Positions 660-5,820 of a stretch of DNA of 37,090 nt are shown piece by piece. The position numbers were made by a program, and so were the translations under genes. The stretch is taken from assembly GCA_013359125.1 (NCBI GenBank), contig JABWCR010000025.1, positions 1-37,090 on the forward strand, read 5' to 3'. How positions within the stretch are numbered: the first letter of the stretch is position 1; each line of letters starts with the position of its first letter. This stretch comes from Armatimonadota bacterium (GTDB lineage Bacteria > Armatimonadota > Fimbriimonadia > Fimbriimonadales > GBS-DC). Below the pieces are notes generated by a model, which saw nothing but the letters and a program-made list of their open reading frames with translations, searched no databases and was not told the origin of the DNA.

Positions 660-2954
660 ATGAGCGGGCTTTCGTTCGTCCAAAGGCTCAAAAAGCGCAG
701 ACTGGAATCGCGCTCCTGTTCCGAGGAGATGGCGCGAATTGTGCGCGACCGGCCCGGCATCGCTCAGGTTCAATACGACCCCCAAGAAGCGAGGCTGGAG
801 CTGACGTACGACGCCGAACGGGTCTCCGAGATCGACGCTCGACGAACCACGGACAAGATTCAAGACGCGCTGAGCGAGCGAATGCCGACTTGCTCCTTGC
901 GAGAAGAAAGCGGCCTTTGCGAGGATTGCCTGTCTGTAGCCGATGCGGGGCGAAAATGGCTGGCCAAGGGAGGCGACCTGCAGGCCCAGTTCGATCAAGG
1001 CCGTCTCTCCGTACAGCGGCAAGGAACCGCATCGACGGCGATGCTGACGCGAAAGATCAAAGCCGAGGACGCCGAGGCCAAGCGGCGCCGTTTCCGCGCT
1101 ACGGTCGAACCGATTCTGGCCGCGCTCACTCTGCTCTTCTTGATCATCGGGCGTTGGCAGCCCGAGGCCATTTTCGCCGCCTATCTGACGGGCGCCTACT
1201 ATGGCGTCCTGGACGGTTGGCAAACGCTCAAGCATCGGCGGTTGGATGTCAACTTTCTAATGATCGCCGCCGCGCTGGGTGCCGCCACGGTGGGCGAGGC
1301 GCCCGAAGGCGCAACTCTGCTGTTCCTCTTTTCAACGTCGAACGCCCTGCAAAACTACGCATTAGGACGCAGTCGCCGAGCCATACGCTCGCTGATGGCG
1401 CTGAAGCCCGAGACTGCCACTCTGTTGATCGATGGAAAGCAGCAAACCGTCTCGGTCGATAGCCTAAAGCCCGACGATAGGGTATTGGTGCGCCCGGGAG
1501 AACGCTTTCCGGCCGATGGTCGCGTCGTTGCCGGTCGATCCCATGCCGATCAGTCGGCCATGACGGGCGAATCGACACCGGTTGCCAAGGGTCCAGGCGA
1601 CCACGTTTTTGCAGGTACGGTGAACGCCTCGGGCGCATTAGAAGTACTGGTCGAGCGAGCGCCCGAAGAGACCTTGCTGGCCAAAATCCTTGCGCTGGTC
1701 GAGCATGCGCAGGAACAAAAAGCCAAATCGCAACTCTGGCTGGAAAAGTTCGAACAGCGATACGCCGTGATCGTCATCGGCGGAGCGATCGCGACTATCT
1801 TCGCTTTGCTGCCTTTTGGGTTTGGTTGGGAACAGGCCTTCTATCGCGGCATGACGCTGCTGGTCGTCGCTTCGCCCTGCGCTTTGGTGATCGGCGCCCC
1901 GGCCACGCTGCTCTCGGCCTTGGCCGCGGCCGCCCGGCGGGGCGCCTTGATCAAAGGCGGCGAGCCGTTAGAACGATTGGCCGAAGTGCAGATCGTCGCA
2001 TTTGACAAGACCGGCACACTGACCGAAGGCAGGCTGAAAGTTGCCGAGACAGTCTTGATAGAGGGCGAAGAGAGCGAACTTTGGCAGATCGTGGCCGACC
2101 TGGAATCGCGATCGGAGCATCCCATCGCCAAGGCGCTGCTATCGGGCGCGACCGAGCGAGGCTATGCGCCAAGGGAGATTACCGAGCCGACCGCCGTTGT
2201 GGGCAAGGGCATTGTCGCCCAAATCGGCGGCTCGGAGATTCGCGCCGGCAGCGCGCGATTTGCCCAAGAAGCAACCGGCAAATCGGCACCGAAAGAGATA
2301 GGAGCGCTGTTGGCCAAGGGCAATACGACTGTCGTGGTAACGCAGGGCGATCGATGGATCGGAGCGATCGCCGTGGCCGACGTTCCGCGCCCTTCTGCGG
2401 TTGCTTCGATACAGGCGCTGCACCAGATGGGCATCAAGACGGCCATACTCAGCGGGGACGCCCGGCCCATAGCCGAAAGGCTCGCCCAGCAGTTGGGAAT
2501 CGATTCGGTCGAGGCCGAGCTGTTGCCCGATCAGAAGTTAATCGCGCTGGAACGGCTGTCCAAGCAACACGGCTCCATCGCCATGGTCGGGGACGGGGTG
2601 AACGATGCGCCCGCCTTGGCCGCGGCCGATGTGGGCATCGCCATGGGGGCCGGTAGCGACGCCGCGCTCGAATCGGCCGACGCCGCGCTCATCAGCAACG
2701 ACCTGCGACACTTGCCGATCCTGCTTCACCTGGCGCGAAAATCGATGGCGCTGGTCAGGCAGAATCTTTACTTTGCGGTCGGGGTGATCGTCGTGCTGGT
2801 CGGCCTGGTGTTCACCGTCGGACTGCGAATGCCGTTGGGAGTGGTCGGGCACGAGGGCAGCACGATACTGGTCGTGCTGAACGGGTTGCGAATGCTGATC
2901 TATCGCCCGCCAGAAGGATTGGGGCTGCACGGCGCAAAAGAGATTGAGGGTTAG
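660..2954 (+). CDS. P1B-type heavy-metal-transporting ATPase (P1B-4-like)
   Basis: 764 aa inner-membrane pump that would export a divalent transition metal (Co/Fe/Zn class) using ATP. Motifs in order: a degenerate HMA-like fold near 20-75 without CxxC, a Cys-rich stretch (CxxxxxxxCxxC) near 79-91, TGES at 302-305 (actuator), SPC at 405-407 in the metal-binding helix, DKTGT with phospho-acceptor D449, S-E-H-P (nucleotide-binding His-Pro), GDGVND at 644-649 and H-E-G-S-T at 731-735 in the last membrane region. SPC plus HEG(G/S)T is typical of the P1B-4 (CoaT/CtpD/PfeT) group rather than CPC-type Zn/Cu pumps. The last 14 residues are encoded by a 44-nt repeat also found at 5777, so the C-terminus is an acquired tail. 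No Shine-Dalgarno precedes the ATG; see the -10 at 649. Confidence 0.92.
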   Translation: MSGLSFVQRLKKRRLESRSCSEEMARIVRDRPGIAQVQYDPQEARLELTYDAERVSEIDARRTTDKIQDALSERMPTCSLREESGLCEDCLSVADAGRKWLAKGGDLQAQFDQGRLSVQRQGTASTAMLTRKIKAEDAEAKRRRFRATVEPILAALTLLFLIIGRWQPEAIFAAYLTGAYYGVLDGWQTLKHRRLDVNFLMIAAALGAATVGEAPEGATLLFLFSTSNALQNYALGRSRRAIRSLMALKPETATLLIDGKQQTVSVDSLKPDDRVLVRPGERFPADGRVVAGRSHADQSAMTGESTPVAKGPGDHVFAGTVNASGALEVLVERAPEETLLAKILALVEHAQEQKAKSQLWLEKFEQRYAVIVIGGAIATIFALLPFGFGWEQAFYRGMTLLVVASPCALVIGAPATLLSALAAAARRGALIKGGEPLERLAEVQIVAFDKTGTLTEGRLKVAETVLIEGEESELWQIVADLESRSEHPIAKALLSGATERGYAPREITEPTAVVGKGIVAQIGGSEIRAGSARFAQEATGKSAPKEIGALLAKGNTTVVVTQGDRWIGAIAVADVPRPSAVASIQALHQMGIKTAILSGDARPIAERLAQQLGIDSVEAELLPDQKLIALERLSKQHGSIAMVGDGVNDAPALAAADVGIAMGAGSDAALESADAALISNDLRHLPILLHLARKSMALVRQNLYFAVGVIVVLVGLVFTVGLRMPLGVVGHEGSTILVVLNGLRMLIYRPPEGLGLHGAKEIEG
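2911..2954 (+). repeat. 44-nt dispersed repeat, copy 1 (inside ATPase 3' end)
   Basis: Matches 5777-5820 at 38 of 44 positions with no gaps by direct comparison. It starts CAGAAGGAT and ends TTAG. Here it is read in frame as the end of the ATPase, supplying residues up to the stop; at copy 2 it is intergenic. The similarity of the two conceptual peptides (GLHGAKEIEG and RLRGAKKIEA) follows from the DNA identity. Confidence 0.8.
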
Positions 2955-2970: not shown

Positions 2971-3594
2971 TTAGACCGCTTTTGCAACAAGATAGCACCG
3001 GCGGCTAGGATACTCGGCTCCCTCGTAAGGCTCCCGATGAACCTCTTCGATGACCGCAAGGTTGGCCGACCGAAGAGCATCGATGACCTTTTCTGGCCTA
3101 TGACATCGAAAGTCTAGCGAGACCGGAACGCCAAACAGGTCGCTTCTATGGACCACCTCCTCGCCGCTATGGAAAGCGAAAAGCGCCAGACCGCCAGTCA
3201 TAAGAATCCGTCGCGTTTCGCGAAGAACTGGCGAAAGCTCGGTCAAGTCGAAGTGAACGATGGAATAGAAATGCACGACTCCAGCGACGGTTGCGTCGCT
3301 CGCGCTGAGCTGCCTCATGTCCTCGACGTGGAATTCGAGATCGGGATTCAGGCTCTGGGCTACCGCGACCATCTTCGGGGAGAAGTCGACCCCAAAGACC
3401 GCGACGCCCTGTTGACTCAGGTACCGAGCAACGTGCCCCGGCCCACAGCCGAGATCGGCGACGGGACCCCGACCGCGAGTCTCTTCTGCAAAGCGATTTA
3501 GGAGATGTCTATCGAGCGGCTTGTGCGCGAGTTCGTCTGACAAATGCTCGGCGTAGGCCGCCGCCGCCGAGTCGTAGCTTTCGCGAATGTCCAT
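2971..3594 (-). CDS. class I SAM-dependent methyltransferase
   Basis: 207 aa cytosolic enzyme of the UbiE/Methyltransf_11-like type. Motif I (V-A-D-L-G-C-G-P-G) is at 46-54 and the acidic end of strand 2 is D70 in G-V-D-F-S; the post-I and motif IV regions follow (VHFYSIVHFDL). The substrate cannot be read from sequence; these small enzymes methylate varied small molecules. It is not a DNA methylase, having no NPPY/DPPY or PC motif, so it is not the partner of the restriction-enzyme remnant upstream. GGAG 6 nt before the ATG supports the start. It converges on the ATPase gene with 16 nt between stops. Confidence 0.85.
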   Translation of the reverse strand: MDIRESYDSAAAAYAEHLSDELAHKPLDRHLLNRFAEETRGRGPVADLGCGPGHVARYLSQQGVAVFGVDFSPKMVAVAQSLNPDLEFHVEDMRQLSASDATVAGVVHFYSIVHFDLTELSPVLRETRRILMTGGLALFAFHSGEEVVHRSDLFGVPVSLDFRCHRPEKVIDALRSANLAVIEEVHREPYEGAEYPSRRCYLVAKAV

Positions 3595-3792: not shown

Positions 3793-4896
3793 TCAGAGAG
3801 TCAGGATGGCTGCTAACGGCCGTCTCAGAATCGCTCGAAGCAACTCGTACTTTTCCGGCAGTCGTCCCGGCAGTAGGATGTCTGTGTACTTGTCACTACC
3901 ATGGAAGGAAACTCCAGCGTCTCCTTCGGCACTCATTCTAAATGCGGTGTTGGTCGTTTTCCGGCCATCGGCATCAGTTTCATAGTGCATAACGGCGAGG
4001 CTGATGTTGTCGCTGGCATGTTTAGGTATTAGGGACGTCTTCAATCGAGTGGTGAGTTCGATGTTCTTAAGTAACTCATCCTGAATCACCCAGACGGTCT
4101 TGCCACCCCATTCTGAAGTCAGCGCGGTCTTCGCAAAAAGCTGGGTTACCATTCGACCACAGACTTGTCTCTTATTGATCCCAGGAGCCTCATGGCCTCT
4201 ATTCATGATGGCGTCACGAAAGGCGCTTCGGATGTCGGTTCCAACTTCAGTGTCCGACCCGCTCGTAGATGCCGTCATCACCTCGATGACCAAGGGGCTG
4301 GTTAACTCGGGCACTAAGATTGCGGAGGTTCTGGGAGTTCGCTCAGCACGAGCAATCAGGCCGACTCGCCTTGCGTCAGCAACAAGTGCATCTGTTTGCG
4401 CATCCGTCATTCGGAACCGTACGGCTTCGTTGTGGATTGTGCTGGACACGATTGGCGCGACGACGTAATCGAAGTGGTAGTTGATGTCGCCCTCATAGCC
4501 GCTAAGCTTCAAATAGACTTCAGACCAGACCCCTACAGGTACGCCACGCGGGGCACCGGCGGCTATAAGTAAATCGCGTTCGTAGGGTTGCAGTTTTGAG
4601 TTGACCTTAGGCGGCGAGGACAAGTCGTTCTTGAAGGCGAGTAGTCTTCTCGGGCACACAACCCATGCGTCTCCTGCCGCTAGGATCGAACAGATTCCCG
4701 GGATGACATCTAGAACACTTTGATCAAAGTAAGCACGAAGCTCCGAGTCGCCAGTTAGGTTGATCTGTCTGGTTGCGGTTCCCGCCACCGTCGCACACAG
4801 CGTCCATAAAAGGGCAACGCTTTAGCTTTCTGGATTCCTCGGCTTGGGCGCTTCGATCCGCTAGGGGAAACCGAACAAGTCAAAGATTTGTGGCAT
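3793..4896 (-). pseudogene. NotI-family type II restriction endonuclease, twice frameshifted
   Basis: The open frame from GTG 4788 to 3793 (331 aa) has G-I-C-S-I ... V-V-C-P-R-R (C33, C45), E90, H-F-D-Y-V-V (D107) and V-I-E-V-M-T (E169), resembling the NotI family: a Cys4 metal-binding N-terminus followed by a PD-(D/E)xK-like nuclease core. The missing N-terminus is recoverable upstream: ATG 4896, preceded by AGGA at good spacing, reads M-P-Q-I-F-D-L-F-G-F-P and stops at TAG 4861-4863. One base earlier, the next frame continues with L-A-D-R-S, then K-R-C-P-F-M-D-A-V-C to about 4785, after which the first frame resumes. The two missing Cys of the Cys4 set lie in that shifted piece. The joined length (about 367 aa) fits NotI (about 380). 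NotI-type enzymes usually have E-x-Q at the site that here is E-V-M. No methylase adjoins. Either a decayed gene or two sequencing indels. Confidence 0.65.
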
Positions 4897-5281
4897 TGAC
4901 GATGATCCTAACGGCAGGTTCATGCCCATCCCCAAATCCGCCCAATCAACATCCGCCCCCTCTGAGAACGCAGTCGAAGCCCGTCGTGCACGGCCAACTT
5001 GACCGCGAAGTTTTTGGGTGAAGGAGATTCATTCGATTTCGGTTAAGTCCAGACAGTCGGGCACGGTATCATCTTTCTACCTCACACCCCGGTGTTCCTG
5101 CCTCTCTCCTCCTTGTGTGCGAGCAGACGAATTCGATTGCCCTTCACCTCCACAAATTTGAGTTGTGAGTTGTCTACTTCGCATATTGCCCCTATCCGCC
5201 TTCGCCTTGCCGTGCTTCTCCTCGATGCGCAAAACATAGCTGGCAACCTGGCGCATGCCCCAATTGGGTAACCTTGAAACT
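4897..5281. other. gene-poor stretch between restriction remnant and VOC gene
   Basis: About 385 nt without a convincing gene. On the minus strand two frames each give a short protein-like stretch between about 5082 and 5270 (V-A-S-Y-V-L-R-I-E-E-K-H-G-K and, one frame over, L-K-F-V-E-V-K-G-N-R-I-R-L-L), which may be a decayed small gene. I cannot name it. No promoter, tRNA or terminator was recognised. Confidence 0.35.
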
Positions 5282-5764
5282 ATGAACCCAGCCAAGAACA
5301 CCGTTTGCCTTTGGTACGACGGAGACGCCGAAGAGGCCGCCCGATTCTACGCCGAAACCTTCCCAGAATCCAGCGTCGACGAGATAACCCGGGCCCCGAG
5401 CGATTACCCCTCGGGCAAAAAAGGGGACGTATTGGTCGTCTGGTTCACCGTCATGGGAATCCCCTGTATGGGGCTCAACGGCGGGCCAACGTTCAAACAC
5501 AACGAGGCGTTCTCGTTCCAGGTTGCGACGAAGGACCAAGAGGAGACCGATCGCTATTGGAACGCCATTGTGGGCAACGGCGGCGAGGAGAGCGTGTGCG
5601 GCTGGTGCAAGGACAAGTGGGGCGTGTCCTGGCAAATCACGCCCGTTGCTCTAACCGAGGCATGGTCCGGCTCAGACCCAACTGCCGCGCAGCGCGTCTT
5701 CGAAGCGATGATGACCATGACAAAGATCGACGTCGCCGCGATCGAAGCAGCGCGTCGCGGTTAA
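5282..5764 (+). CDS. VOC-superfamily protein (PhnB/3-demethylubiquinone-like)
   Basis: 160 aa, starting M-N-P-A-K-N-T-V-C-L-W-Y-D-G-D-A-E-E-A-A. This is the PhnB-like glyoxalase-fold pattern: a first beta strand followed by E-E-A-A-R-F-Y, then M-G-I-P-C-M-G-L-N-G-G-P-F-K-H-N-E-A-F-S-type core, and a C-terminal C-G-W-C-K-D-K-W-G-V-S-W-Q-I-T-P. The function of this subgroup is generally unknown. The upstream in-frame ATG at 5255 is possible but 5282 matches the family start. No clear Shine-Dalgarno precedes it. It stands alone between the restriction remnant and the repeat at 5777. Confidence 0.85.
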   Translation: MNPAKNTVCLWYDGDAEEAARFYAETFPESSVDEITRAPSDYPSGKKGDVLVVWFTVMGIPCMGLNGGPTFKHNEAFSFQVATKDQEETDRYWNAIVGNGGEESVCGWCKDKWGVSWQITPVALTEAWSGSDPTAAQRVFEAMMTMTKIDVAAIEAARRG

Positions 5765-5776
5765 GGCCGTCGCCTG

Positions 5777-5820
5777 CAGAAGGATGGAGGCTGCGCGGCG
5801 CGAAAAAGATTGAGGCTTAG
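5777..5820 (+). repeat. 44-nt dispersed repeat, copy 2 (intergenic)
   Basis: Second copy of the element at 2911-2954 (38/44 identical). It lies 12 nt after the VOC stop and its terminal TTAG runs directly into the AGGAGG ribosome-binding site of the Gfo/Idh gene at 5833. It is on the same strand as copy 1. Confidence 0.8.

Follow-up and report, generated by a model that had tools for sequence, protein, structure and literature searches.

The gene on the reverse strand at positions 4896-3793 of the window (the whole 37,090-nt stretch of DNA that was analysed) is probably a pseudogene of a type II restriction endonuclease of the NotI superfamily, an orphan that was acquired horizontally and inactivated recently; we assign this reading a probability of about 0.78. 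Three intact relatives, found at the loci L005, L006 and L007, encode in one frame what the window holds in three, and its most plausible history is the transfer of a restriction system, the loss of its methyltransferase and the breakage of the endonuclease left behind.

Reading frames and breaks of the gene

Read in three frames, the sequence from 4896 to 3793 on the reverse strand is a single gene, made up of the following parts:

4864..4896, reverse strand: frame 1, which begins at ATG 4896, encodes MPQIFDLFGFP and ends at TAG 4863-4861; it agrees with the first 11 residues of the L006 and L007 relatives
4864..4870, reverse strand: break 1, a T3C4 run immediately 5' of this stop, with one base fewer than in four relatives (DNA alignment)
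4763..4863 (open 4879-4727), reverse strand: frame 2, LADRSAQAEESRKLKRCPFMDAVCDGGGNRNQTD, which holds Cys 1 and 2 of the Cys4 site and agrees with L007 residues 12-45
4763..4766, reverse strand: break 2, in the context ACAGATC, with two bases fewer than in the relatives (DNA alignment)
3793..4764, reverse strand: frame 3, which encodes the remainder of the enzyme, including Cys 3 and 4 (CSI..VVCPRRL), to the stop at 3795-3793
3793..4788, reverse strand: a 331-aa ORF with a GTG start, which gene callers would report; its product has only two of the four Cys

The original prediction had read the frame from ATG 4896 by hand as MPQIFDLFGFP with a stop at 4863-4861, and had assigned the first two cysteines to a middle frame and C-S-I...C-P-R-R to the frame from GTG 4788, all of which the sequence bears out. 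A possible ribosome-binding site, AGGA, lies about 9 bases 5' of this ATG. Frame 2 contains LADRS..KRCPFMDAVCDGGGNRNQTD, and its open stretch from 4879 to 4727 includes KRCPFMDAVCDGGGNR. The return to the original frame had been placed at 4785-4788; it was located instead about 20 bases further downstream, at a junction near 4766-4761 (..NQT/D..NLTGDSEL), with the original frame back at about 4764. Past this junction the frame of the 331-aa ORF reads NLTGDSELRAYFDQ..GICSILAAGDAWVVCPRRLL and then continues to the stop at 3795-3793, and the putative active site carried by frame 3 consists of E (WSEV), D (FDY) and E-x-M (IEVMTASTSGSD).

Aligning the window DNA with that of L006, L007 and two further relatives (L014 and L015) revealed two frame-changing gaps over 4896-3793, with three bases missing in all. 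The prediction that a run of four C would need a fifth holds in that the T3C4 run is one base short, but the missing base may belong to the T run or to the C run, between which the alignment cannot tell. The two shifts had also been described as compensating. As arithmetic this is correct, given that they sum to a whole codon; however, because a stop sits directly after the first site and ends translation there, they fail to rescue the protein.

Intact relatives and their placement in the NotI superfamily

The relatives at L006 (370 aa) and L007 (371 aa) are intact and respectively 53% and 55% identical to the window protein, while that at L005, also intact, is more distant (33% identical) and has a 399-aa ORF, which shortens to about 372 aa if read from the likely native start. 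In one frame, L006 and L007 carry the start MPTIFDLFGFP, CPFM.AICDGGGNRYQT, GVCSI and WVVCPRRLL, and the N-terminus of the intact relatives runs without interruption as MPTIFDLFGFPLDDRS..RQCPFMGAICDGGGNRYQT..GVCSI..WVVCPRRLL. A family profile built from L005, L006 and L007 aligned to window positions 4896-3799 over model positions 1-370, with an E-value of 9.9e-116 and two internal stops. Given that the same N-terminus stands in a single frame in the intact relatives and that the profile spans the whole stretch, the homology across the three frames is, judging from the sequences, not a product of chance. The cysteines C28, C35, C70 and C82 are invariant in the intact relatives, and the window splits these four between two frames; it also has a Cys at an otherwise invariant Trp position. 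All four cysteines are thus found in relatives of about 370 aa, none of which starts at the GTG, a comparison that supports the predicted NotI-like, Cys4-containing enzyme of the PD-(D/E)xK type, in which two indels divide the Cys4 half.

The assignment to the NotI family itself had to be narrowed. At its 22-bit cut-off the Pfam model PF12183, the search that had been suggested as a check, matched neither the window ORF nor the read-through, nor any of the intact L005, L006 and L007 proteins. The Pfam search as a whole left the window protein without a match and the intact relatives without a meaningful one; for the window protein, NCBIfam gave no significant match and PHROGs and PADLOC gave none, and a sequence search of the PDB with the family returned nothing meaningful. 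No relatives were detected among the plasmids, phages and viral contigs searched. The PADLOC REase_II model PDLC03464 matched the L005 relative (E 1.7e-5, residues 242-302), but not the window protein, L006 or L007.

On the other hand, comparison of profiles brought the family close to members of PF12183. Against PF12183 members from the same phylum the profile-profile value was 95.7%, and against a PF12183 subgroup that includes L022, L026, L028, L031 and L034 it was 97.4% by hhalign (E 1.3e-11), with the alignment covering the full length. A HMMER profile of this subgroup also matched the N-terminus of the family, with E-values down to 2.5e-7 at Z=1000, while reversed and shuffled controls gave E > 25. 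The identity between the family and the subgroup is about 20-25%, and the Pfam model itself does not detect the family.

An AlphaFold model of L007 from the family-only alignment was poor (pLDDT 54) and gave no match in Foldseek. Adding five PF12183 members to the alignment improved the model (pTM 0.70, pLDDT 61.7), and NotI bound to DNA (3c25) occupied ranks 1 and 2 of the Foldseek search (E 1.9e-5 and 9.8e-5), with a probability of 1.00 for rank 1, although the TM-score was only about 0.3, a value kept low by the modest confidence of the model. As the added PF12183 members may have drawn the model towards NotI, the Foldseek result is good but not independent support. Because of the Foldseek match to 3c25 and the profile-profile match to the PF12183 subgroup, the sequence profiles and the predicted structure place the family of the window gene in the NotI superfamily, outside Pfam PF12183, so that the name NotI-family holds at the superfamily level only.

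The likeness to NotI (R.NotI, PDB 3c25) extends to an N-terminal Cys4 site, for which metal binding is predicted in the family and which in NotI is an iron site (PMC4081073), to the order of the active-site residues (E..D..E-x-X), and to a similar length (354 vs 371). E127, D144 and E210 are invariant in the family and align with the active-site E..D..E of NotI. The family differs from NotI in having no PF12183 match and, at the position where NotI has Gln in place of the catalytic Lys (PMC4081073) and most PD-(D/E)xK enzymes have Lys, in having an invariant Met (M212). The endonucleases of L005, L006 and L007 show an invariant E-V/I-M-T in place of the E-x-Q/K of NotI and PD-(D/E)xK enzymes, and Lys131 is likewise invariant in the three. 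Tentatively, the intact relatives could represent a distinct group of the NotI superfamily that cuts DNA with Met for the catalytic Lys or Gln (E-x-Met), or in which this function has moved to another residue, for instance the invariant Lys131.

A further relative, at L014 1429-1995 (G099:C215:5964-6937), has the active-site strand with E-x-M deleted and its frame broken, and the C5 methyltransferase upstream of it is still open. As in the window, it is the endonuclease that tends to be lost.

Missing methyltransferase and bracketed segment

At L005, L006 and L007, as well as at the G099 and G101 loci (L014 and L015), the endonuclease gene is located directly downstream of a C5-cytosine methyltransferase; in L007 a Vsr gene stands between the two. 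A search of the window for a methyltransferase of the cognate type, or a remnant of one, found none. Searched with the cognate methyltransferase, the genome as a whole returned just one match, to a distant Dcm-like protein (43% over 121 aa) whose gene is on contig C5 (L011 6642-7553). The window has a Vsr mismatch endonuclease gene of its own (TIGR00632, E 3.9e-31) at 162-620 on the reverse strand, at the contig end, with no C5 methyltransferase adjoining it.

The broken gene lies within a short segment, whose other features are:

2911..2954, forward strand: left copy of a 44-bp direct repeat, which forms the 3' terminus of the P-type ATPase gene (660-2954)
2971..3594, reverse strand: SAM-dependent methyltransferase (Methyltransf_25/11) of the small-molecule type, not a DNA methyltransferase; an intact passenger
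5255..5764, forward strand: PF06983 (3-dmu-9_3-mt, VOC-fold) gene; an intact passenger
5777..5820, forward strand: second (right) copy of this repeat, with 86% identity to the left one

These two copies of the repeat, the only ones found in the genome, flank a 2.8-kb segment with three genes, the broken one included. In the repeat, the ATPase gene has its 3' terminus duplicated, possibly as the trace of an integration event; an integrase gene was not noticed. The G+C content of the broken gene is slightly below that of the window (0.535 vs 0.581). Of 291 genomes from the phylum, 4 carry the endonuclease family; the 17 other genomes from the taxonomic family of this bacterium all lack it. This patchy distribution, together with the bracketed segment, is a pattern suggestive of horizontal acquisition. 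In an empty-site comparison with genomes of the same taxonomic family, the ATPase and the next gene were only 47-59% identical and were not adjacent.

Endonuclease genes without a cognate methyltransferase, and frameshifted parts of restriction-modification systems, have been described among solitary and decayed type II systems (Ershova 2012, PMC3488263; Oliveira 2014, PMC4176335), which the window locus resembles. It differs from the cases of PMC3488263, in which R is of full length and M is absent or broken, in that the broken gene is R itself, with M missing.

Decay, sequencing error and other explanations

The missing partner and the breaks are observed at the level of the assembly, and an alternative that we judge unlikely is that sequencing or assembly errors produced the breaks in an enzyme that is intact in the organism. 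There are precedents, since annotated frameshifts in restriction-modification genes are sometimes sequencing errors and, of a checked set of frameshifts in one genome, most disappeared when it was sequenced again (Ershova 2012, PMC3488263). Error would fit the position of both break sites, each within or next to a short run of one base, and the good conservation of the remainder of the gene; yet one of the two sites is short by two bases, and a cutter that was intact but orphaned would depend on a methyltransferase, of which the genome has no close one. The breaks, moreover, cluster in two restriction loci. The one true PF12183 (NotI) gene of the genome, at G000:C1:205178-205719 (L010 5083-5867), is likewise split over three frames. 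Adjoining it, a pair of methyltransferase-like ORFs (L010 6807-5864, reverse strand) is split in two frames; these ORFs carry FRYPGGK and DPPYT motifs, assigned by eye, and have no Pfam match.

As a stand-in for the background frameshift rate of this genome we used a search for the ABC-ATPase family. The 44 ABC_tran matches corresponded to about 42 loci, one of them split, or roughly one break per 18 kb; the sole split domain is that at G000:C13:16052-16463, in two frames. Five breaks in 2.8 kb of restriction-modification DNA have a Poisson tail probability of 7e-7 at this background rate and of 5e-4 at four times the background, and because they are so improbable at the control rate, real decay is favoured; we infer that the breaks are present in the organism rather than in the assembly alone. 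Open frames cover 98% of the remainder of the 37-kb window, where gaps of more than 150 bases occur only on the two sides of the 331-aa ORF.

If the breaks are set aside, the gene seems well preserved. The share of window-specific changes that fall at conserved positions (11/55) is like that of the intact L006 (3/16), and pN is far below pS, but dS is saturated, which makes the substitution test for relaxed constraint a weak one. Since the remainder of the gene is so well conserved, its inactivation, if real, was recent.

It is very improbable that the 331-aa ORF from GTG 4788 encodes a functional short protein independent of the Cys4 half, despite being open over 331 codons and conserved. No obvious ribosome-binding site precedes the GTG, and the Cys4 half is present in every relative with an N-terminus among the sequences compared. 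Because the first eight or so residues (MAGTATRQ) are out of frame with respect to the relatives, GTG 4788 is, from the alignment, not a native start. We rejected programmed translational frameshifting, with a slippery site before the stop and a second shift restoring the frame, as the least credible explanation: T TTC CCC TAG (4870-4861, reverse strand), directly 5' of the stop, does fit the -1 slippery heptamer X XXY YYZ, but this account requires a second programmed shift some 100 bases away from the first, and L006 and L007 lack such a heptamer and read straight through.

An inactivated orphan endonuclease is the favoured account of the locus. The ancestral protein, of about 370 aa, was probably NotI-like, with an N-terminal Cys4 metal site helping DNA binding and a PD-(D/E)xK core that, by analogy with NotI, would have cut a specific site. 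To judge from NotI and from the gene order of the relatives, a neighbouring C5-cytosine methyltransferase would have marked and so protected the sites of the host, and the endonuclease would have destroyed unmarked DNA. The gene probably came by horizontal transfer in the short segment now flanked by the 44-bp repeat; the methyltransferase would then have been lost, and two small deletions would have disrupted the endonuclease frame in its Cys4 half, transfer, methyltransferase loss and breaks being the order of events that we infer. A ribosome starting at ATG 4896 would now make 11 residues and then stop. Loss of the protecting partner would make inactivation of the cutter necessary, and because an active endonuclease would be harmful once the methyltransferase is lost, only broken copies would survive.

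A broken orphan restriction gene is in itself a common and ordinary fate of a restriction gene, and the two decayed NotI-type loci of this genome illustrate cleanly how restriction systems die once they have been transferred. NotI is a widely used rare cutter, to which an uncharacterised group of endonucleases encoded beside C5 methyltransferases, and missed by Pfam and NCBIfam, is now tied. The part worth keeping is this intact group of the NotI superfamily outside PF12183, which, with Met at the usual Lys/Gln position, is mildly novel.
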